DNA from: Maribacter arenosus
GTDB taxonomy: Bacteria > Bacteroidota > Bacteroidia > Flavobacteriales > Flavobacteriaceae
Direction: 5' to 3'
DNA length: 64,000 bases
Assembly: GCF_014610845.1 (NCBI RefSeq)
Contig: NZ_JABTCG010000002.1
Span: forward strand, 186,001 to 250,000
Shown: piece by piece, positions 3,604 through 14,009 of the stretch
How the letters are laid out: each line of letters opens with the position of its first letter
Numbering within the stretch: position 1 is the first letter of the stretch
Position numbers and translations under genes: made by a program
The notes under the pieces: model-generated
What the model was told of the DNA's origin: nothing
What the model saw: only the letters and a program-made list of their open reading frames with translations
Databases searched by the model: none

Positions 3604-4032
3604 TTAAAGTTTTTTAACGTACCCGAAGACCATTTTTTTGAATTCCCGAAAATCGTTTTCAAAAAGCACCATGCTTTCGTTCAATCGCTTATGTTCTTCC
3701 CTATAGTCCCCATCGGCAATGCCCTTTTCCCCTTTTTCCAAACGGGACAACATTTTTTCATGCTCCTTGATGTCTTCCGTTAGATAGTCGAATAGGTTTT
3801 CATGGATCTTATCCAGATAATTCAGCATTTTACCATATTCCGATTCCTTTACTTCCCGCTTTTCCAGAATATTGCCGAAGAACTTGGTCTCGTCTTTCCA
3901 AAAGGCAATGGTGTCTAACCATTCACGACTTTCTTGGTGCAATACGTCAAGGCCAGCACCTAACAATAATTCTGTTTTAGGATTTGATAACAAAGTATAC
4001 TTGGTAGAAGATTTTATAGTCGCACCTTTCAT
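3604..4032 (-). CDS. conserved alpha-helical protein of unknown function
   Basis: A 142-residue, charged, mostly helical protein with no signal peptide. I do not recognise the family. The many Glu/Lys-rich heptad-like stretches (residues 25-140) and His residues in HQES, KIHENL and EEHKR suggest a four-helix-bundle type fold, but this is inference. A frame-open extension to 4116 exists. I chose the ATG at 4032 because a complete promoter lies directly upstream: a TGAT-N4-ATCA palindrome at 4083-4094, 23 nt, then a CATTTTTG -7 element at 4052-4059. The longer start would put that promoter inside the gene. The gene is divergent from the LigD-type polymerase gene, which has the same type of promoter, so it is a likely stress-regulon member. 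Confidence 0.7.
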   Translation of the reverse strand: MKGATIKSSTKYTLLSNPKTELLLGAGLDVLHQESREWLDTIAFWKDETKFFGNILEKREVKESEYGKMLNYLDKIHENLFDYLTEDIKEHEKMLSRLEKGEKGIADGDYREEHKRLNESMVLFENDFREFKKMVFGYVKKL

Positions 4033-4082
4033 GGGATGAATTTTTATGGTACAAAAATGCAAACCAGTAGTTTTCCCTGAAA

Positions 4083-4094
4083 TGATTTGTATCA
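4083..4094 (-). promoter_or_regulatory. CRP/FNR-type palindrome upstream of the 3604-4032 gene
   Basis: Read on the minus strand the site is TGATACAAATCA, followed by TTTCA. Exactly 23 nt after it lies CATTTTTG (4052-4059), close to the flavobacterial -7 consensus TAnnTTTG, and the start codon follows about 20 nt later. This spacing is the same as in four other promoters nearby, placing the site near -41 as in class II CRP/FNR activation. The -33 triplet is TCA, not TTG, consistent with activator dependence. Confidence 0.55.
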
Positions 4095-4143
4095 GTCCAA
4101 GACCTGAAAAAGCCAAATAAATCAGGTTGAAAAATCATCGAAA

Positions 4144-4155
4144 TGATCCTTGTCA
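4144..4155 (+). promoter_or_regulatory. CRP/FNR-type palindrome and promoter of the LigD-type polymerase gene
   Basis: The site TGATCCTTGTCA is followed by 2 nt, a TTG at 4158-4160, an 18-nt spacer and TACTTTAC at 4179-4186. The same arrangement (2 nt, TTG, 18 nt, TACTTTAG) precedes hsp20. The predicted transcription start is near 4192, about 85 nt before the ATG at 4278. The match of both the palindrome and the spacing makes it a good candidate binding site for the receiver-CRP protein encoded at 9575-10645. Confidence 0.6.
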
Positions 4156-4277
4156 TTTTGAAACGTCATCAATTCATTTACTTTACCCTGCATTTTTATT
4201 TTGTCCGGAACAAAACCGGATTGGATAAATGTACCACACAATAAAGCTAAATACGATTTATCCAAATACTAAAAATC

Positions 4278-5174
4278 ATGGTCTTGGCGAACACAACATC
4301 TAGCGATAAAGTATTCTTCCCGAAGTCCGGGATCACAAAGGGCGACCTCATACATTATTATGAAACCATAGCAGACTACATGCTGCCCTATCTCGAGGAC
4401 CGGCCGTTAACCATGCATCGTTTCCCTAAGGGAATTTCAGAAGAGGGGTTTTTTCAAAAGAACGCATCCGACTATTTTCCCGATTGGATAAATAAAGCGA
4501 AGGTGAAAAAGAAATCGGGTTGGGTAAACTCTGTCATCTGCAACAACAAAGAGACTTTGTCTTATTTGGCAAACCAAGGGACCATAACTTTCCATGTTAC
4601 CTTAAGTAAAATAGATAAGTTGGACTACCCGGATAAATTGATCATTGATCTTGACCCATCTGTACACGATTTTACGTCGGTCCGTAAAGGAGCCCATCTA
4701 CTTCGGGATTTATTAGTTGAGCAATTAGGACTTTCTGTATATATTATGCTCACGGGTTCTGAGGGTGTTCATTTGGTTGTTCCCCTAATGCGTATTGAGA
4801 ATTTCGATGAGGTTCGGATATTTGCCAAAAAAGTGGTCACCTATATGGCCGAAAAATATCCAAAAGATTTTACCATTGCCATTCGAAAAGACAAACGCAA
4901 AGGACGATTATTCTTGGATTACTTACGTAATTCATATGCGCAGACCGCGGTTTGCCCCTACTCCGTTCGTGCCTTGCAAAAGGCCCCTGTAGCCATGCCA
5001 ATTGCTTGGGACGAACTCGATAAGCTTAACGATTCCCAGGCTTTTAATATTCATACGGCGGGTCATAGGTTAACCAAAAATGAAGACCCTTGGAAAGACT
5101 TCACTAAAAATGCCAAAATTTTAAGTGATGCCAATAAAAGGATGGACTTATTGATCCAGCAAGGGATTTCGTAA
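4278..5174 (+). CDS. stand-alone LigD-type DNA polymerase/primase domain
   Basis: A 298-residue protein matching the archaeo-eukaryotic-primase-like polymerase domain of bacterial NHEJ ligase LigD. Visible features are an N-terminal KVFFPKSGITKGDLI, the metal-binding IIDLDPS with Asp124 and Asp126, the GSEGVHLVVPL loop containing the motif His, and the C-terminal block around LFLDYLRN and AVCPYSVRA. In Mycobacterium and Pseudomonas this domain is fused to ligase and phosphoesterase domains and works with Ku. Here it ends after the polymerase domain, and neither Ku nor an ATP ligase is in the window. The family fills gaps with ribo- or deoxynucleotides at breaks. Together with exonuclease III and its stress-type promoter this suggests a repair role under stress. 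Confidence 0.85.
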   Translation: MVLANTTSSDKVFFPKSGITKGDLIHYYETIADYMLPYLEDRPLTMHRFPKGISEEGFFQKNASDYFPDWINKAKVKKKSGWVNSVICNNKETLSYLANQGTITFHVTLSKIDKLDYPDKLIIDLDPSVHDFTSVRKGAHLLRDLLVEQLGLSVYIMLTGSEGVHLVVPLMRIENFDEVRIFAKKVVTYMAEKYPKDFTIAIRKDKRKGRLFLDYLRNSYAQTAVCPYSVRALQKAPVAMPIAWDELDKLNDSQAFNIHTAGHRLTKNEDPWKDFTKNAKILSDANKRMDLLIQQGIS

Positions 5175-5189
5175 GCTCTTTTGTGTATA

Positions 5190-5681
5190 TCATGTTAACT
5201 CTTGGATTTCAACTGTTTCAAATGGATTTTTAATGATGGTAGAGGTTCTACCTAGGATAAGATATTGTCCTTCTGTCAACTTTTCCAAAGTATTCGAGGT
5301 CTCTTTACTGTTCAGGCCCAAACCCCTCAAAATACCATAAAGGCCTTCGGGCAAAGCACCCAATTTTTTTCCATTAACCTCTTGTACAAATAAGCCCGTA
5401 TAAGGACCGGTGATAAAAACGCTGCCAATATCCGGATTATAGAACAATCCGAATTCTGTCATTGGCCCCAATATTTTTTGCCAATAATTCTCAAGTTTCA
5501 ATTTCAAATCTGCTACAAACACATCATCTAAATTTTGTTGCCCTAGTTTGAACATAATGGTTAAATGGGAATCCGAGTCATTCTTTGTCAAAAAATCCAC
5601 CCATTTTTCAACATATGACAATTGCGCCATGGTATAAAAGAAAACATATGGCTCTTCTTTTTTTATCGATTTAGTTTCCAT
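5190..5681 (-). CDS. conserved hypothetical protein
   Basis: A 163-residue soluble protein with no signal peptide. I do not recognise it with certainty. The C-terminal stretch (GLNSKETSNTLEKLTEGQY, then LILGRT) faintly resembles the end of DUF1269/YflT-type general-stress proteins, in which a small residue-rich segment is followed by a Lys/Glu helix and a short strand. This is a weak impression. A CRP/FNR-type palindrome with correctly placed -7 element precedes it (5773-5784), so it likely belongs to the same regulon as the neighbouring kinase, polymerase and Hsp20 genes. Confidence 0.65.
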   Translation of the reverse strand: METKSIKKEEPYVFFYTMAQLSYVEKWVDFLTKNDSDSHLTIMFKLGQQNLDDVFVADLKLKLENYWQKILGPMTEFGLFYNPDIGSVFITGPYTGLFVQEVNGKKLGALPEGLYGILRGLGLNSKETSNTLEKLTEGQYLILGRTSTIIKNPFETVEIQELT

Positions 5682-5772
5682 AAATAGAATATTCGGTATA
5701 CACTATTGCATACATAGGAGAAGGTCCTGTTTGCTAAATGGTGAAATTATCTTCTAACCATTACCCTTGCAA

Positions 5773-5784
5773 TGACTTAGGTCA
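5773..5784 (-). promoter_or_regulatory. CRP/FNR-type palindrome upstream of the 5190-5681 gene
   Basis: On the minus strand the site is TGACCTAAGTCA, with perfect TGAC/GTCA half-sites. A TTG follows immediately (5770-5772), then 20 nt, then TAATTTCA at 5742-5749. The distance from site to -7 element is again 23 nt. The predicted start is about 55 nt before the ATG at 5681. Confidence 0.55.
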
Positions 5785-5914
5785 ATCCGTTCAGGAAATT
5801 AACGGTTTTAGGGTATAATTGAACGAGTAACCAAAAACGCTAGACCACCATGCCGTTGATGTTCTATGTGCGACAAATAGATTTCCTTTTACAGGGCTTC
5901 ATAGGGAACCTACA

Positions 5915-5926
5915 TGATAAATGTCA
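5915..5926 (+). promoter_or_regulatory. CRP/FNR-type palindrome upstream of the LOV kinase
   Basis: TGATAAATGTCA is followed by TTTCA, the same flank as the 4083-4094 site. TAATTTTA lies at 5950-5957, exactly 23 nt after the palindrome. There is no TTG at -33, so the promoter may depend on an activator. If the receiver-CRP protein binds here, the sensor-regulator pair is autoregulated. Confidence 0.55.
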
Positions 5927-6114
5927 TTTCAATAAGGGTATTCCTGTGTTAATTTTAAATTTAATCCATTACACCCCTATGGTATAACCGCTATCATATC
6001 ACGCATACAATGGAAGCCAGTATAGGATAATGAACTGGGAGCATACAGGTTGCACACCTAAGAGGTGAAAAAATACCTTCATCGACCCTAGTTTAAAGAA
6101 GATAAATAAGCACT

Positions 6115-9100
6115 ATGAAAGCCGACCCAAACGATAACATCCTCTATAAAAACATTTTCGAGGCTTCACTCGATGGTATTCTTGTGGTCGATAAAAACGG
6201 GATAATCATTAAGGCCAATACGACATGTGAATTAATGTTCGGATATGACCAAGGGGAACTATTGGGAAAGAAAGTTGAAGACTTACTACCAAAAAAACTA
6301 CGTAGAACACATAAGGAACAGAGAGCCAGGTATTACGAAAAACCAAGAACACGACCTATGGGCGAGAATTTGGATTTATGGGGGCTAAAAAAAGATGGTC
6401 TTAAATTTCCTTTGCAAATAAGTCTAAGTCCTTCAATCTTCGATAATCAATCTGTTACCATCGCTTACATAAGGAATATTTTACATTCAAAAATGGTGGA
6501 ACAGGAACTAAGGGCCAAAAGAGCCAAATACAAAGCACTTTTGGATGCCCAACCCGATATTATGGTGATTCAAAACTATTCCGGGGATATAATCGATTTC
6601 TATGCTCCGGAACAAACAGAGCTGTATGTTCCCAGAACGGAAATCATAGGAAAAAATATTAAGGAGCTTGTTCCTTCAGAGATGTCCAAAATGATATTGC
6701 AGGCACACAATGAAGCCATAAAATCAAAAAAAACCCAGATTCGTGAATATTCATTAAAGCAAAATCAGCAAAAAGTTGACTATGAATCGAGAACCGTTCT
6801 GCTGAACGACCATAACCTATTGACCATAGTCCGCGATATTACCGATAAAAAAAGAACAGAACAGGAATTAAAGGAAAGTGAAGCCAGGAATAGGGCGGTT
6901 TTGGAAGCGCTTCCAGACACCATAATTGTACATGACAAAAAAGGGAACTATCTCGATATCGAGTCATCAAGCCTGTCATTACAATTATTTGATAGGGAAA
7001 TGACCATTGGGAAGAATGTAAAGGAGATTTTCCCTAAAGAATTGAGTTCAAAAATTGTTGACGTATTGTCAAAAGCGCATAAAACCAAATCACTACAAGT
7101 TTTAGAAGCACCAATACCCGGTCGGGATAGAATAATAGATTGCGAGGGAAGGGTCGTACCTTTTGAAGACGATAAATTGCTTGTGGTATTGCGCGATATC
7201 ACCGAGACCAAGGCAATACGGGATATACTATATGTCCGCAACAGGGCTTTGGAAGCAGCAGGAAACGGAATAATTATCGTGGATGCAAAGCTTCCGGATA
7301 ATCCCATTATCTATTGCAACGATGCTTTTTCTAAAATAACAGGGTACAGCGAAAATGAAGTCTTAGGAAGAAACTGCCGTTTTTTGCAGAAGAACGATCG
7401 TGATCAAAAAGAACTTCGCACAATAAGAAAGGCCATTAAAGAAGGTCGTCCATGCCACGAGGTGATACGCAATTACAAAAAAGATGGCTCCTTGTTTTGG
7501 AACGAACTTACCATTACGCCAGTATTTGACGAACAAGGGGTTCTGACGCATTTTATAGGGGTACAGAACAATGTTACCGAACGTATTAAAGAAGCCCAGA
7601 TCAAAGATCAGATGCGTCAAATCCTGGAAATGATCGCAACGCATACTGCCCTTGAAGAAATCGGCAAAACCATAGTAGAGCTGGTAGAGGGTCATTTAAC
7701 TAACTGTGTTGCCTCTATCTTTATGTTAGATCCAAAGAAAAAAACGCTTCATAAATTGGCGGCCCCCAATCTACCTAAAGGGTTTTGCGATATTATAGAA
7801 GGCGTATCATTGGGACCAGATATCGGTTCTTGTGGCATTGCAGCCTATTTGAGAAAGGAAGTGATCGTTACCGATTTAACAACGAATCCACTTTGGGTCG
7901 ACTATCGGGAAGCGGCATTGAAACACGGACTTAACTCGTGTTGGTCTTATCCTATTTTTTCTTCTGACAAAAAAGTGTTAGGTACTTTCGGTATATATGG
8001 TAGGGCGCCAAAAAAACCTTCAAAAGCGGATAAGGAAATCGTAGGTGCCATCATTCAGTTGATCAGTATCGCCCTAGAAGAACATAATATTCGTGAACAG
8101 TTAAACAAAAGCCATTGGCTTTTGGAAGATTATGCAAAAGAACTCGAACAAACCGTAAATGAACGTACGAACGAACTAAAGGCCACCGTTCAAAAAATGA
8201 TAGAGGCCAACCTTAACCTTGAGGACCAAATCAAAGAGACGAAAGATGCGGAAAATAGAGCATTGGAAAGCCAGGCCATGTTCACGGCCATAGCTAAGAA
8301 TTTTCCCAAAGGGGTTATTATAGTATTCAATACTGATTTTGATATTGTCTATATCGATGGCGGTGAAATGTTCCGTATGGGCTTGGACAAGAGTAAATTT
8401 GAAGGTAAGTGCATCGATGATATAAAAGTATTTTCAAAGCAACGTATTTCCCGAATAAAGGAAGACATAAAAAAAACGATGAAAGGAGAGAGCCTCTCAT
8501 TCGAGACGCGGTTCAGGAACAAATATTTTAGTGTAAATACCTCTCCGTTGATGGGGGGGAATGATGAAATAAAATGGACACTTTTCGTCTATAATGACAT
8601 AACTAAATTAAAACAAGCCGAAACTGAGATTCGAAAAGCTTTAATACGTGAGCAGGAACTCAACGAGTTGAAATCGCGATTCATTTCAATGGCCTCCCAT
8701 GAGTTCAGAACTCCTTTGAGCGCCATCCATTCCTCTGCTATCCTAATAGAAAAACAAAATACCCCGGGAAAAGAAGCTAAACGCGAGAAATATGTAAATC
8801 AGATCAAACATAATGTTAGAGGGTTGGTAGTTATCCTAAACGATTTCCTTTCGTTGAGTAAATTGGAAGAAGGTCGTGTACTGCCCAATCCTGAAAACTT
8901 TGATCTTGTTGCCTTTACGAAAAGGATAGTCTCTGAAATGGAACCCAATCGAAAACGGGGGCAAAATATCAAGGTAGTCTCTAACAAAAAAACCATCACC
9001 GCGTATTTGGATCCTAAACTCATGAACCATATTTTGACCAACCTTTTGAGCAATGCCATTAAATACTCCGAACATGACCAAGAGATCCTGGTTACCCTTC

Positions 9101-9381
9101 AGCACTCGGGAGAATCGGTCTCGGTCAAAGTAAAAGATCAGGGTATAGGTATTCCCAAAGAAGAACAGGACAAACTTTTTCAAAGGTTCTTCCGAGCAAA
9201 TAACAGCATGAACATACAAGGCACGGGACTGGGCCTTAATATCATAAAACAATATACCGAACTTATGGGTGGCACTGTTGGTTTGGAAAGTGAACAGCAC
9301 AAAGGATCAACATTTTGGGTAAGATTCCCAACATTACAACATCTGAATATCCCGAAATCGGAAGAACATAACAATTTATAA
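6115..9381 (+). CDS. multi-PAS sensor histidine kinase with a blue-light LOV domain
   Basis: A 1088-residue soluble kinase with no membrane segments. Order, with approximate residues: PAS (8-125), PAS (138-245), PAS (262-370), LOV (375-492), GAF (500-655), coiled coil (657-722), PAS (724-840), HisKA (850-915, phospho-acceptor His862 in ASHEFRTPL), HATPase (960-1075, NLLSNAIKYS, DQGIGIP, GTGLGL). The LOV domain has the photoactive GRNCRFLQ with Cys421, and the flavin contacts Asn420, Arg422, Gln425, Asn453, Asn463 and Gln484 are all present. In the family, blue light forms a flavin-cysteine adduct that changes kinase activity. The partner regulator starts 193 nt downstream on the same strand. 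The start ATG is the first in the frame. Upstream is a CRP/FNR-type promoter. The GAF and other PAS domains may sense further signals. Confidence 0.93.
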   Translation: MKADPNDNILYKNIFEASLDGILVVDKNGIIIKANTTCELMFGYDQGELLGKKVEDLLPKKLRRTHKEQRARYYEKPRTRPMGENLDLWGLKKDGLKFPLQISLSPSIFDNQSVTIAYIRNILHSKMVEQELRAKRAKYKALLDAQPDIMVIQNYSGDIIDFYAPEQTELYVPRTEIIGKNIKELVPSEMSKMILQAHNEAIKSKKTQIREYSLKQNQQKVDYESRTVLLNDHNLLTIVRDITDKKRTEQELKESEARNRAVLEALPDTIIVHDKKGNYLDIESSSLSLQLFDREMTIGKNVKEIFPKELSSKIVDVLSKAHKTKSLQVLEAPIPGRDRIIDCEGRVVPFEDDKLLVVLRDITETKAIRDILYVRNRALEAAGNGIIIVDAKLPDNPIIYCNDAFSKITGYSENEVLGRNCRFLQKNDRDQKELRTIRKAIKEGRPCHEVIRNYKKDGSLFWNELTITPVFDEQGVLTHFIGVQNNVTERIKEAQIKDQMRQILEMIATHTALEEIGKTIVELVEGHLTNCVASIFMLDPKKKTLHKLAAPNLPKGFCDIIEGVSLGPDIGSCGIAAYLRKEVIVTDLTTNPLWVDYREAALKHGLNSCWSYPIFSSDKKVLGTFGIYGRAPKKPSKADKEIVGAIIQLISIALEEHNIREQLNKSHWLLEDYAKELEQTVNERTNELKATVQKMIEANLNLEDQIKETKDAENRALESQAMFTAIAKNFPKGVIIVFNTDFDIVYIDGGEMFRMGLDKSKFEGKCIDDIKVFSKQRISRIKEDIKKTMKGESLSFETRFRNKYFSVNTSPLMGGNDEIKWTLFVYNDITKLKQAETEIRKALIREQELNELKSRFISMASHEFRTPLSAIHSSAILIEKQNTPGKEAKREKYVNQIKHNVRGLVVILNDFLSLSKLEEGRVLPNPENFDLVAFTKRIVSEMEPNRKRGQNIKVVSNKKTITAYLDPKLMNHILTNLLSNAIKYSEHDQEILVTLQHSGESVSVKVKDQGIGIPKEEQDKLFQRFFRANNSMNIQGTGLGLNIIKQYTELMGGTVGLESEQHKGSTFWVRFPTLQHLNIPKSEEHNNL

Positions 9382-9574
9382 GGTTATGACATCAATAAAA
9401 ATAAACCATAAAAATAGAGGCAGGGAAAAACGCAACTAGGAACATATTGGATAAGGAAACTGCCTGATAAAATTGCCTTATGGAAGCCTAGGACTAAAGA
9501 GTGTTGTATACAAGGAGCGCCCCTTAAAAATCAGCACCGAAAGGATGCGAACTAACGATATTACACAAGAAGCC

Positions 9575-10645
9575 ATGAAAAAAATACTATTGATAGAAGA
9601 TAACATTGATGTTCGTGAGAATACAGCGGATATATTGAAACTTCATAATTATGATGTGGTGACCGCCGAAAACGGGCAAATTGGAATTGAAAAGGCAAAA
9701 CGTTATCCTCCTGACCTGATCCTCTGCGATATTATGATGCCGGTAAAGGATGGGTATGACGTATTGGAAGAACTCAGTAATGCAAAAGAAACGATTGGAA
9801 TCCCATTTATCTTTTTAACGGCCAAATCGGAAAGAACCGATTTTCGCAAAGGGATGAACCTGGGGGCCGACGATTATCTCACCAAGCCTTTTGAGGAACA
9901 TGAACTGATCGAAGCAATTGAAACACGTGTCCGCAAAAACGATTTTCTGCGGAAAGAGTTCTCCAGGAACATAGAAGGTATCAACGCATTTATCCAAGAA
10001 GCCCACAACTACCTGAACCTGGAGCAAATTGAAAAGGAATATCGACCAAAATCGTACGATAAAAAAGATTTCGTTTTTAGGGAAGGGGACGGTGCCCATA
10101 CCTTATACTTTATTGAAAGAGGAGCCATAAAGACCTATCGTTCAACCGAGTCGGGTAAGGAATTCGTAACGGGTATACACAAGGCGGGCGATTTTATAGG
10201 GCAGCTTTCCCTTATGAGCCCAAAAGGGGTCTATCTCGAAACCGCTATGGCTATTGATGCCACGGAGGTATATGCTATACCTAAAGCAGATTTTATTCAC
10301 TTGGTCGATGACAATAGAGAGGTCTCCCATAAATTTATGGATATCATTTCGAACAATCTTATCGAGGTACAGGACCAATTGGTCAATATGGCGTATTCCA
10401 CAGTACGTCAGCGGGTAGCCAAAGCCCTTTTGAGTCTATATAATAAAGGAATCATTAAGGATTCCTATTATGAAGGACTTGATATTCCCAGAGAGGACTT
10501 TGCAGGTATGATCGGTACGGCCACGGAAACTGCAATAAGAACCCTTTCGGAATTTCGGGAAGAAGGACTGATTACCATGGGGCATGCACGAAGGATCATT
10601 CTTTTGGATAAGGAGGAATTGCAGAACATTGCCGATAATTATTAA
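9575..10645 (+). CDS. response regulator fused to a CRP/FNR-type DNA-binding protein
   Basis: A 357-residue transcription factor. Residues 1-120 are a CheY-like receiver with the acidic pocket IEDN, phospho-Asp52 in CDIMMP and TKPF. Residues about 150-265 are a cyclic-nucleotide-binding-like beta roll, and about 275-345 a Crp-type winged helix. The recognition helix reads TATETAIRTL and keeps the Glu and Arg spaced as in FNR/CRP, which contact TGA half-sites. An upstream extension to 9473 is open, but I chose the ATG at 9575 because MKKILLIEDN is the normal receiver start. It follows the LOV kinase on the same strand, so it is the likely phosphorylation partner. The TGAY-N4-RTCA sites nearby fit its predicted specificity. 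Confidence 0.92.
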   Translation: MKKILLIEDNIDVRENTADILKLHNYDVVTAENGQIGIEKAKRYPPDLILCDIMMPVKDGYDVLEELSNAKETIGIPFIFLTAKSERTDFRKGMNLGADDYLTKPFEEHELIEAIETRVRKNDFLRKEFSRNIEGINAFIQEAHNYLNLEQIEKEYRPKSYDKKDFVFREGDGAHTLYFIERGAIKTYRSTESGKEFVTGIHKAGDFIGQLSLMSPKGVYLETAMAIDATEVYAIPKADFIHLVDDNREVSHKFMDIISNNLIEVQDQLVNMAYSTVRQRVAKALLSLYNKGIIKDSYYEGLDIPREDFAGMIGTATETAIRTLSEFREEGLITMGHARRIILLDKEELQNIADNY

Positions 10646-10702
10646 TTATTACGCTTTACATCATCCAGCCCAACCAAAGTATTAATTAAGGAGCACAACT
10701 CC

Positions 10703-13348
10703 TCAATTCTCATGTGAACCTACTATTAACCTTTTTAACAGCTGTGCCAATGCCATTGACCCTAAAGCAAATAAAAATATTGTTGTAAAAAATTCAACCG
10801 ATAAGGTTTTCAATGATAAGACCGATGCGATTGGTAGTATAAGATAGGCACTAAAAGTTATCACGAGTGATAAAAAAATGGCAGACCATACCCATGGGTT
10901 CTTCGTGACTTCATTGTTGAAAAAAGATTCATGTCTTTTGGGTATATTGAACACATTGAATAATTGTGCAAACACCAAAGTATAGAAAGCCATATTGTTG
11001 ATCATAATAGCCTCTAGTTGAAGTACAAAATGTGCGTATGCCACGATTCCCATAACGGCTGTGCTGATACTAAGACCATAAACAAGGATTGCATACCAAT
11101 CTAATCTGTCTATAATCGGGGATTTAGGGTTTTTAGGGGATTGCTCCATTATATCCGACTCTCCCCTACCCAAACCTAAGGCGAGTGCAGGAAAAATATC
11201 GGTCACTAGATTTAAAAATAGAATCTGCAAAGGCAATAAAGGTGCCGGAAGATTCAGTAATGCGGCAAATCCTACTGAAAGGATCTCCGCCAGATTACAT
11301 GACAATAGGTATACCACAAATTGACGGATATTCTGAAAAACCACTCTTCCTTGACGAATAGCGAGTTCTATGGCGGTAAACTTATCATTCTTAAGGATTA
11401 CATCAGCTACCTCCCGTGCAGCTTCAGTTCCCCTGATGCCCATTGCAATGCCAATATCAGCCTTCTTTAATGCCGGTACGTCATTTATACCATCACCGAT
11501 CATCCCGACAATATGATTGTGTTTTTGATAAAAGGAGACTAGATTTAATTTTTGTTGGGGTGTCACACGAGCGAAAATAGTGGCATCGAGCAATTTTTTA
11601 GAATGATTTTCATTTTCTAACGCTTCGAAATCAAGGTCACACCCCCTAAGTGTTTTAAAAGGCGATGCATCTATGTTCAATAGTCCAATTTCCTGTGCAA
11701 TTCTTTGTGAAGTACTTGGATGGTCACCTGTGACCATCACTACCTTAATCCCCGCCTTTTTGTAGATGTCAAGTGTGGCCTTTACATCTTTTCTTGCTGG
11801 ATCTAAAAAGCCTATTAGGCCTAAGAATATGAGTTGGTCCAAAATAGTGTCCTTCGTGGGTGCATTTGCCGTTTCCTTACAAGCGAAAGCCAAGGTACGC
11901 ATGCCTTGTGCAGCCAAGGCATCAACTTTTTTAAACCATGCATCGACATTATGTAAAGGTCTCCTTTCGTCCCCATCTAAATAATAATGACAATGGGCAA
12001 CCAAGCTCTCGAACGCGCCCTTTACATATACCGCGAACGTATTGTTCTTATGTGCTGTGGCCATGAGTTTGCGATCAGCATCAAAAGGAAGTTCAAAATA
12101 TTCAGGATATTCATTTTTAATGGCAAGGGCATCATATCCGAGATACTTTGCAAAATCGATTAAGGCTAATTCAATGGAATCGCCGATATGGTCATTCGCT
12201 CCAACATCCACATTGTTACAGAGGATCGAAGTCAAGATTATTTTTTTTAAGGCAGGTTTCTGTTTTGCATCAAAGCTATTTTCATGGTGATATATATCTG
12301 TCACCGATCCATTGGCAAAAACAATAGTATGGACTTTTAATTGGTCTTCGGTCAAGGTACCCGTCTTATCCGTACATATGATATCGGTGGCTCCCAAAGT
12401 CTGAACGGCTTCCAACTTTTTAATAATGACCTGTTTTTTAGATAACCTGTACATGCCTTGAGCCAATGCAATAGTGGCAACGATAGGCAGCCCTTCTGGA
12501 ATGGAAGCAACCGCTAATGCCAACCCGGTTTCGACCATCAGCAACAACTCTTTTCCGCGTAGAAATCCTAAAACAACAATGATAACCGTAAGAAAAAGTG
12601 TCAGCCAGATGAGCCTTTTCCCCAATTCGTTTAATTTCTTTTCCAAAGGGGTTCGTTCCTTTTCAGCCTCGACCCCCATTTGCTGAATATTTCCCAGCTG
12701 GGTATCTTTACCTATCGCAGTAATAATGGCTTTACCTAAACCCGTTAATACGGTTGTTCCCCTAAAGACCATATTCGATTGATCGGTCAAGGGTGTATTA
12801 ATGGGCAGTGTATCCGTATTTTTGACTATCGGTGTACTTTCCCCTGTAAGGGCGGACTCCTTTATGGACAAACTATCGACATGGATAAGTCGCCCGTCTG
12901 CAGGAATTACATCCCCTGTCTGCAAGTAAATAATATCCCCCACGACAATCTCAGCCGCCTTGATTACCCTTTTCCTACCCGAACGCACCACCATGGTTTT
13001 GGCCTGTCCCATTTTGCGCAATGCTTCCAAAGAACGAATCGCCTGTAACTCCATAAAAAACCCAATGCCAACTGATATCAATATCACAATCAATATGGCA
13101 AAACCTTCCAACTTGTCACTAAAAAAAAATGCTAAAACAGCTGCGATTGAAAGAATATAAACTATGGGGTCGAGCAGCTGATCCTTGAGAATGAACCATC
13201 TACTTTTAGGACCCTGTTCCGGTATTTGGTTCAGTCCATATTTTTGAAGTCGCCGTTGGGCTTCTTTTTCAGTCAGACCTAGCCTATAGTCAGTATCCAA
13301 AGCGCTTAAAATTTCATCTGATGAAAGTGAGAAGGGACTTTGGACCAT
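10703..13348 (-). CDS. P2-type cation ATPase (Ca2+-ATPase-like)
   Basis: An 881-residue membrane pump of the P2 group. Visible are the N-terminal cation-ATPase domain, ALTGESTP in the actuator loop, membrane-4 motif IPEGLP, phosphorylation motif CTDKTGTLTE (Asp327), MVTGDHP and GDGINDVPALKKADIGIAMG. The intact PEGLP and overall layout fit Ca2+- or Na+-type pumps more closely than the ATPase at 271-2781, but the ion is inference. It lies 112 nt downstream of hsp20 on the same strand, separated by a strong hairpin terminator, so it may be expressed by read-through from the hsp20 stress promoter. No separate promoter was obvious. Confidence 0.92.
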   Translation of the reverse strand: MVQSPFSLSSDEILSALDTDYRLGLTEKEAQRRLQKYGLNQIPEQGPKSRWFILKDQLLDPIVYILSIAAVLAFFFSDKLEGFAILIVILISVGIGFFMELQAIRSLEALRKMGQAKTMVVRSGRKRVIKAAEIVVGDIIYLQTGDVIPADGRLIHVDSLSIKESALTGESTPIVKNTDTLPINTPLTDQSNMVFRGTTVLTGLGKAIITAIGKDTQLGNIQQMGVEAEKERTPLEKKLNELGKRLIWLTLFLTVIIVVLGFLRGKELLLMVETGLALAVASIPEGLPIVATIALAQGMYRLSKKQVIIKKLEAVQTLGATDIICTDKTGTLTEDQLKVHTIVFANGSVTDIYHHENSFDAKQKPALKKIILTSILCNNVDVGANDHIGDSIELALIDFAKYLGYDALAIKNEYPEYFELPFDADRKLMATAHKNNTFAVYVKGAFESLVAHCHYYLDGDERRPLHNVDAWFKKVDALAAQGMRTLAFACKETANAPTKDTILDQLIFLGLIGFLDPARKDVKATLDIYKKAGIKVVMVTGDHPSTSQRIAQEIGLLNIDASPFKTLRGCDLDFEALENENHSKKLLDATIFARVTPQQKLNLVSFYQKHNHIVGMIGDGINDVPALKKADIGIAMGIRGTEAAREVADVILKNDKFTAIELAIRQGRVVFQNIRQFVVYLLSCNLAEILSVGFAALLNLPAPLLPLQILFLNLVTDIFPALALGLGRGESDIMEQSPKNPKSPIIDRLDWYAILVYGLSISTAVMGIVAYAHFVLQLEAIMINNMAFYTLVFAQLFNVFNIPKRHESFFNNEVTKNPWVWSAIFLSLVITFSAYLILPIASVLSLKTLSVEFFTTIFLFALGSMALAQLLKRLIVGSHEN

Positions 13349-13369
13349 AACGGTGTATTAAGTAATTAT

Positions 13370-13444
13370 AAAAATAAAAGACAATGCCCCCTTACCTAAC
13401 CAAATCGCATGGACGCTTTTTATGGTTTTTGTAAGAGGGCATTG
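13370..13444 (-). terminator. intrinsic terminator after hsp20
   Basis: Arms at 13431-13444 and 13382-13395 form a 14-bp stem that is fully paired on the minus-strand RNA (one U-G wobble) but has a C-A mismatch on the plus strand. So it acts for hsp20. The loop is about 35 nt, and the stem is followed by a U-rich run. It sits between hsp20 and the downstream ATPase and may reduce read-through. Confidence 0.7.
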
Positions 13445-13460
13445 TTAGACGCAATGGATG

Positions 13461-13925
13461 TTAGGCAATCTCTACCTTTTTAGGTGGTTTTTTCTTGAGC
13501 TCTTCTTTTTTTAATAGATCAAAACTCAATATACCTTCCTTGTACTTGGCTTTTATTGCTTCTTCCTTAACGCTTTCTGGCAATTGCAATGAGCGTTCAA
13601 AAGCATTATAACTGAATTCGCGACGAGTATAATTTTCCTCTTTTTCCTCTTCTGATGTCGATTTTTCAGCAGAAATGTTCAAGCAGCCGTCTTCAATAGT
13701 GATTTCAAAATCCTTTTTGGCGAAGCCAGGAGCTGCAAGCTCTATTTCGAATTTGTCCTCGGTTTCCTTGATGTTCAATGCGGGTTCGGTGGTTTTACCA
13801 TTCCAAAACGTATCGGGAAGCATATTCCTGACCCAAGAACGATTATCGAAAAAATCATCCATATCGAAAAAATCCTGTCTAACAAGATTTCCGAAAGGTC
13901 TTCTTCTAAATTTTACTAGTGACAT
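13461..13925 (-). CDS. small heat-shock protein, Hsp20/alpha-crystallin family
   Basis: A 154-residue cytoplasmic holdase chaperone that binds unfolding proteins. The N-terminus (KFRRRPFGNLVRQDFFDMDD) is followed by an alpha-crystallin domain at about 45-140. Its family pattern is visible: AALNIKE-like strand, FEIELAAPGFAKKDFEI, and the FERSLQLPESV strand ending in GILSFDL. The C-terminal tail KKVEIA resembles the short hydrophobic anchor of the family. Its promoter carries a CRP/FNR-type palindrome just upstream of a TTG-N18-TACTTTAG core. It is probably the first gene of a unit with the Ca2+-ATPase-like gene. Confidence 0.95.
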   Translation of the reverse strand: MSLVKFRRRPFGNLVRQDFFDMDDFFDNRSWVRNMLPDTFWNGKTTEPALNIKETEDKFEIELAAPGFAKKDFEITIEDGCLNISAEKSTSEEEKEENYTRREFSYNAFERSLQLPESVKEEAIKAKYKEGILSFDLLKKEELKKKPPKKVEIA

Positions 13926-13966
13926 AACATTGTGTTTTTAGGTTAAACAATCCTTGAATTTTGACC

Positions 13967-14009
13967 CTAAAGTATAAGGAACCACTGGCGTACAAAATGA
14001 TCCAGGTCA
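13967..14009 (-). promoter_or_regulatory. hsp20 promoter with CRP/FNR-type palindrome
   Basis: On the minus strand: TGACCTGGATCA (13998-14009), 2 nt, TTG (13993-13995), 18 nt, TACTTTAG (13967-13974). The palindrome centre lies close to -41.5 from the predicted start near 13961. Geometry is identical to the 4144-4186 promoter and gives a 36-nt leader before the ATG. Confidence 0.6.

Follow-up and report, generated by a model that had tools for sequence, protein, structure and literature searches.

At five promoters in the window, a 64,000-nt stretch of Maribacter arenosus DNA, a TGAY-N4-RTCA site lies exactly 23 nt before a −7-like element, and the same geometry recurs across the genome. These sites form, close to certainly, an FNR-type class II regulon. 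The five-promoter regulon proposed in a preliminary description of this DNA was far too small, as there are 47-76 candidate sites in the genome. A histidine kinase with a LOV domain and a fused receiver-CRP response regulator (RR1) are encoded side by side in the window, and we consider it probable that they form an autoregulated system which drives the stress branch of this regulon.

A fixed distance between site and promoter box

The genes of the window that concern us are these:
3604..4032, minus strand: orphan protein of 142 aa, from a small-protein family (alignment A1)
4278..5174, plus strand: 298-aa LigD primase-polymerase domain protein (PF21686, E=1.8e-88)
5190..5681, minus strand: 163-aa orphan protein
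6115..9381, plus strand: 1088-aa histidine kinase with GAF and several PAS domains, including a LOV domain (GRNCRFLQ), from Pfam
9575..10645, plus strand: RR1, 356 aa, with receiver, cNMP-binding fold and Crp helix-turn-helix (PF00072, PF00027, PF13545)
10703..13348, minus strand: P-type ATPase, Ca2+-ATPase-like, behind Hsp20 (PF00122/PF00689)
13461..13925, minus strand: 154-aa Hsp20 small heat-shock protein (PF00011, E=4e-24)

Neither the 142-aa orphan protein, whose family has 8 members in this genome, nor the 163-aa one had a match in Pfam or NCBIfam. The best NCBIfam match of the P-type ATPase, TIGR01522, was under the cut-off, and the scan of the window found no gap-23 site of the gene's own. 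The five promoters are as follows:
Promoter 1, 4052..4094, minus strand: TGATACAAATCA (4094-4083), 23 nt, −7 element CATTTTTG (4059-4052); upstream of the 142-aa orphan gene
Promoter 2, 4144..4186, plus strand: TGATCCTTGTCA (4144-4155), 23 nt, TACTTTAC; upstream of the LigD-type polymerase gene
Promoter 3, 5742..5784, minus strand: TGACCTAAGTCA (5784-5773), 23 nt, TAATTTCA; upstream of the 163-aa orphan gene
Promoter 4, 5915..5957, plus strand: TGATAAATGTCA (5915-5926), 23 nt, TAATTTTA; upstream of the LOV kinase gene, then the receiver-CRP gene
Promoter 5, 13967..14009, minus strand: TGACCTGGATCA (14009-13998), 23 nt, TACTTTAG; upstream of Hsp20, with the Ca2+-ATPase-like gene behind

All five sites were recovered at the coordinates and on the strands implied by the preliminary description, and each at exactly the 23-nt distance it had reported. 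The TTT said to follow the sites is present at four of them and absent at the 5784 site, where TTG stands instead. The −7 element of promoter 1, CATTTTTG, is off-consensus. With a −7 pattern that also admits the off-consensus CAnnTTTG, the five gap-23 sites of the window compare with a mean of 0.04 and a maximum of 1 in 300 dinucleotide shuffles. The window has 14 copies of the bare 12-mer, against a mean of 4.13 in shuffles.

Genome-wide enrichment of motif plus spacing, named beforehand as a check, was borne out: motif-N23-TANTTT gave 47 matches in 4.17 Mb and 0 in the reversed control. When TANTTT was allowed at gaps 12-34 there were 105 matches against 26 in the control; among the 100 of these that were listed, 46 had gap 23 and every other gap had at most 8. 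TANNTTTR at gaps 16-30 gave 85 matches against 5, with 62 of the 85 at gap 23 and at most 6 at every other gap. The two −7 forms combined yield 76 gap-23 sites. TANTTT was rejected as the sole −7 form for being too restrictive: near relatives have TAnnTTT in their kinase promoters.

The class II position of CRP and FNR activators is −41.5. In the mapped transcriptome of Flavobacterium psychrophilum, a TAnnTTTG box lies at −12 to −5 (PMC9723704; neither 'fnr' nor 'crp' occurs in the main text). A gap of 23 nt to a box so placed puts the 12-mer at −47 to −36 with its centre at −41.5, in agreement with the class II centre near −41 proposed earlier, the position of the −7 box being borrowed from this other flavobacterium. 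The gap-23 peak has the form expected of class II promoters, with starts inferred from the borrowed box position.

The genes behind the sites point in the same direction. Of the 47 strict sites, 45 have a downstream open reading frame of at least 60 aa, some of these frames being doubtful (short or with GTG/TTG starts), and two have none within reach; three of the 47 lie inside a reading frame. A Pfam scan of 44 of the 45 target genes (L045 was left out) gave no match for nine. Among the others were Usp proteins, pyruvate/2-oxoacid:ferredoxin oxidoreductases, a ferredoxin, PPDK, cytochromes c, a multiheme cytochrome, flavodoxin, thioredoxin, ferritin, dodecin, CBS, RseC, a Pyr_redox_2 family flavoprotein, the LigD polymerase and Hsp20, together with outer-membrane, transport and lipid genes that have no obvious link to the rest. 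Twenty of the 29 further canonical (TANNTTTR) sites were fetched; 19 of them had a reading frame, of which 10 were scanned with Pfam, and three of the further sites lie inside a same-strand frame. Here we found the cbb3 oxidase genes ccoNO, 259 nt downstream of a canonical site with the gap-23 geometry, a NuoEF-like protein, Usp proteins, a pyridoxamine-oxidase-like protein and a radical SAM protein that we read as HemN-like. The cbb3 oxidase ccoNO and HemN are classic FNR-type targets. We take the target set for a low-oxygen and stress regulon of FNR-like type.

Motif and spacing are kept at all five promoters in four near Maribacter loci, as a check for conservation had demanded, although some −7 elements are weaker. 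Promoter 1 keeps its motif, gap 23 and CATTTTTG in 4 of 4. The motif of promoter 2 is also present in all four, with gap 23 and a weak −7 in L081, as is that of promoter 3, with gap 23 and a weaker −7 in L057 and L081. For promoter 5, all 12 Hsp20 homologues in the loci of RR1 orthologues have the motif, 11 of them with a −7 of the scanned type at gap 23, and the central bases of these sites vary between species. The kinase site, in the form N23-TAnnTTT, was present in 8 of 15 relative loci (L057, L058, L059, L081, L068, L069, L070 and L072). In L061-L065 a site stands before the next upstream same-strand gene, 12-353 nt from the kinase; the kinase of L071 has a site at gap 24 only, and at L066 a kinase-promoter site was not found. 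Sites are dense in these loci, where 40 of 169 other reading frames of at least 150 aa have one upstream, so the excess at the kinase promoter is modest and slightly lowered our confidence in the overall reading. Conservation and co-occurrence back the earlier proposals of autoregulation of the kinase gene and of a regulation that it shares with the two orphan genes, Hsp20 and the LigD polymerase.

Candidate regulators, the proposed circuit and its signal

Six HTH_Crp_2 proteins are encoded in the genome, and three have similar recognition helices: RR1 (GTATETAIRTLSEF) and two encoded elsewhere.
C12:113778-114476: standalone FNR-like protein (GTATESAIRIISEF), about 3 kb from ccoNO
C1:211 kb: RR2, a second receiver-CRP protein (GMATETLIRTLSSF), preceded by a histidine kinase gene, as at RR1

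The preliminary description had named RR1 as the reader of the sites. This is plausible, but RR1 is not the sole candidate, since RR2 and the standalone protein carry a similar helix. A gap-23 site with a weak −7 also lies upstream of RR2's kinase gene.

RR1 belongs to the CRP/FNR superfamily, with PF00027 and PF13545 exceeding the cut-off, and CRP, FNR and FixK2 structures align with its AlphaFold model over the CRP part; the arrangement of the domains is uncertain, as pTM is 0.49 and mean pLDDT 78.8. No NCBIfam model reached its cut-off among the 25 of 108 matches listed for RR1. Its receiver (PF00072) has the acidic pair, phospho-acceptor Asp and Lys of a response regulator, and all 22 sequences compared (picked by filter, from two overlapping sets) keep the Asp and Lys. 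The Fe-S cluster cysteines of classical FNR are missing from RR1: the receiver forms its N-terminus and contains the protein's sole Cys. By eye, RR1 has Q and E at the cAMP contacts that we take to be E72 and R82 of CRP, which speaks against cAMP dependence. The standalone protein keeps four Cys in 7 of 7 aligned sequences, for a putative cluster, with a spacing that is presumably unlike that of E. coli FNR.

In the circuit that we propose, a CRP/FNR-family dimer at −47 to −36 would contact RNA polymerase at the −7 box promoters of Bacteroidota, and the standalone FNR-like protein, RR1 and RR2 are the three related candidate users of this geometry. The four-cysteine standalone protein would probably serve an oxygen branch of cbb3 oxidase, HemN-like protein, ferredoxin oxidoreductases and cytochromes. 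RR1 and RR2 are each encoded behind a sensor kinase of their own, RR1's having PAS, LOV and GAF domains. This LOV kinase is predicted to phosphorylate the RR1 receiver, whereupon the CRP part would presumably bind TGAY(C/G)(C/T)nnRTCATT and turn on the stress branch (Hsp20, the pump encoded after it, the LigD polymerase, Usp and orphan proteins) as well as the kinase gene itself. What we observe are the sites, their fixed spacing, their enrichment in the genome and the family, conservation and co-occurrence; that RR1 binds and is phosphorylated, that it activates and does not repress, and that the signal is blue light or the redox state of the flavin, we infer. The wiring overall would resemble FixL-FixJ-FixK with the receiver fused directly to the CRP/FNR protein.

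Blue light is a plausible signal, the conserved LOV domain being the one basis for it. At the sequence level the kinase has a LOV core with its Cys, HisKA and HATPase, and its LOV part has its best match among solved LOV photoreceptors at E=2.6e-38. The circuit may be right and its signal another, with LOV sensing flavin redox state or oxygen, or with PAS/GAF dominant; for the signal only, we regard this as a serious possibility, though the lesser one. Redox and stress genes are numerous among the targets, and the orthologous kinases of L062 and L066 are without LOV. Against this, 14 of the 17 kinase rows in the alignment retain LOV and its cysteine, in contrast to the variable first PAS, and the closest solved relatives are LOV proteins. 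The third row without the cysteine, L060, is a cut contig; it was included in the alignment, from which L067, cut by a contig end, was excluded. FixL-like heme sensing by the first PAS was rejected, the His of the FixL-like stretch not being conserved in the orthologues.

Which protein reads the sites

RR1 has 17 orthologues (identity 58-85%), and their loci are rich in sites, with 52 gap-23 matches in 305 kb and 0 at gap 23 in the reversed control. Near the 17 orthologues there are 61 sites at gaps 22-24; TGAY is followed by C/G in 38 of them, and by C/G then C/T in 31. The pattern TGAYSYNNRTCAT-N22-TANTTT was found 46 times in genomes with RR1 (8 of 10) and 28 times in the other genomes (16 of 110); adding TCATT left 37 against 7, and a strict form, TGAYSTANRTCATT (T, A and TT fixed), 18 against 2. 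The P-values of these comparisons are descriptive, as the pattern was picked after seeing the ortholog-locus sites and the genomes are not independent; some species of the ortholog loci may also recur among the 120 family genomes (G handles). GC bias may lie behind the sub-motif, but the strict form still stands at 18 against 2, in genomes unmatched for GC. In these comparisons the C/G-C/T sub-motif tracks RR1. No sub-motif sites were found in G063 and G054, both with RR1. The window sites at 4144, 5773 and 13998 fall in the sub-motif, and those at 4083 and 5915, the latter in the kinase promoter, fall outside it. RR1 likely reads the Hsp20/LigD-type sites and that of its own kinase gene.

Across 120 sampled genomes of the family, gap-23 sites numbered 1299 against 126 in the reversed control, about tenfold. 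The median per genome was 10 in the 100 genomes with a relative of the CRP part at E<=1e-12 and 1.5 in the 20 without. Regulator classes, assigned from the matches listed and open-frame length, gave medians of 7 sites for the standalone type only (45 genomes), 9 for RR2 only (21 genomes), 15 for standalone plus RR2 (23 genomes) and 2 for no regulator (21 genomes), with 14-47 sites in the 10 genomes with any RR1, all among the matches listed. G048 was an outlier, with 18 sites and no close CRP-part relative; it is 82% complete and 6% contaminated. In a phylum sample of 148 genomes scanned with TANNTTTR, 20 genomes of the same class and other orders gave 98 matches against 8 in the control, and most genomes beyond the class had none or one to three.

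Might the standalone FNR-like protein or RR2 read all the sites, leaving RR1 with other or minor targets? The helices GTATESAIRIISEF and GMATETLIRTLSSF are similar to GTATETAIRTLSEF, cbb3 and HemN-like genes share the geometry, and the site before the kinase itself, TGATAAATGTCA, shows the A/T centre that prevails in the family. The 45 genomes with the standalone type only, among the matches listed, have their median of 7 sites, and G032, of the same genus, has no RR1 match yet 36 sites, four of them in the sub-motif. The standalone type is not needed, however, because sites are kept without a close standalone copy in G056 (34 sites; RR1 and RR2; next match E=2.4e-9, 26% identity) and in six RR2-only genomes (G096, G101, G074, G069, G090 and G105; 7-21 sites). 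It thus seems that the receiver-CRP proteins, and elsewhere the standalone type, may each be enough to keep such a regulon. With the sub-motif tracking RR1 and the density of sites around RR1 genes also against it, we consider another reader of all the sites unlikely.

Use of the sites by a repressor, or dual use, is very improbable. CRP/FNR proteins can repress too, but a repressor requires no fixed phase and 62 of 85 matches at one gap mark class II activation. Chance palindromes in AT-rich promoters would suit the frequent bare 12-mer but are refuted by the reversed control (47 against 0), the shuffles and conservation.

A separate arrangement was seen in relatives of RR2. Six loci of Chitinophagaceae/Sphingobacteriales type, three of them close kin, hold 12 sites at gap 45, and all 12 have a second, degenerate site starting with TGA exactly 10 nt on, at the gap-23 place; the same feature accompanies 8 of 94 other motif matches in these loci. 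This suggests tandem dimers, which would sit at −63.5 and −41.5.

Known systems and significance

FNR, FixK and ANR govern regulons with class II promoters in Proteobacteria. The present sites are alike in their palindrome, near TTGAT-N4-ATCAA and centred at −41.5, and in having cbb3 oxidase, HemN-like, Usp and Hsp20 targets. Unlike those regulons, the promoter box here is TAnnTTTG, and of the three candidate readers two are fused to receivers and encoded next to kinases, RR1 being without the cysteine cluster. In the FixL-FixJ-FixK system of rhizobia, a sensor kinase acts through a receiver on a CRP/FNR activator. That order is proposed here too, but with the receiver and CRP parts fused, a LOV domain in the kinase, and a FixL-like His in the first PAS that its orthologues do not keep. 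In the DosR dormancy regulon of mycobacteria, Hsp20, Usp, a cation ATPase and orphan stress genes likewise answer to a response regulator that a kinase controls, but DosR is of LuxR/NarL type and the regulator here is of CRP type with class II geometry. LOV histidine kinases (with solved relatives such as 6ph4 and 3t50) share the LOV domain with its cysteine motif, and differ in that a long PAS/LOV/GAF chain stands here beside a CRP-type response regulator.

In the open-licence literature searched, no receiver-CRP regulator of Bacteroidota was named, and no description was found of a LOV kinase acting via a CRP-type response regulator. Confirmation of RR1 would give a LOV kinase that works through such a regulator. 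More tentatively, and at slightly under an even chance, the −41.5 position may be common to an oxygen-type sensor and receiver-CRP fusions in marine Flavobacteriaceae, so that blue light and low oxygen converge on it, the regulators being parted via the central bases (C/G-C/T against A/T) with the geometry fixed.

Flavobacteria are major marine degraders whose regulons are poorly known. The motif and its exact distance to the box make a simple search, with 47-76 candidate targets in this genome, and the regulon gives many orphan genes a link with low oxygen and stress. It would also be a natural case of several activators at one promoter position.

Islands and spacing in the M. arenosus genome

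A second kinase/receiver-CRP island lies at C1:207000-222000 (locus L056; C, contig), where TGAY-N4-RTCA motifs at the usual gap of 23 nt from the -7 element precede two genes of the Usp type, a thioredoxin gene and members of the small-protein family. Another island in this genome is dense in sites and carries the following genes.

C18:534-567 kb: MlaE, flavin reductase, Usp, multiheme cytochrome, YtxH-like gene

The genome has 9 sites of the sub-motif in which C/G then C/T follow TGAY, a form linked to the window's receiver-CRP fusion (RR1), and 4 of them fall within this island. The gap was 24 rather than 23 nt at two sites with this centre, at C1:496 kb and C1:576 kb (L051, TGACCTATATCA; L052, TGACCTAAGTCA).

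Genes beside the motif, and a family genome

The small-protein family of alignment A1 (signature W.S.L.F..DEL.F-like), for which no Pfam match was found, has eight members in the genome.

Window 3604-4032
C1:204-222 kb
C12:162 kb
C12:185 kb
C20:423 kb

A gap-23 motif with a -7-like element lay upstream of 6/8, the -7 being weak in two of these six. The protein of window 4278-5174 has a LigD polymerase domain as its sole domain, and an exonuclease/endonuclease/phosphatase-family gene lies two genes away. Despite 18 gap-23 sites in G048, a family-sample genome (82% complete, 6% contaminated), no close relative of the RR1 CRP part was found there.

Probable tandem sites at gap 45

Twelve motif sites with a 45-nt gap were spread over six loci of RR2-like relatives (L073, L074, L075, L076, L078, L082). 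All twelve were accompanied by a second, degenerate site whose TGA starts exactly 10 nt past the first, compared with 8/94 other motif matches at these loci; none of the twelve second sites had the full consensus. This arrangement suggests that the pairs are tandem dimer sites, spaced by 22 bp.
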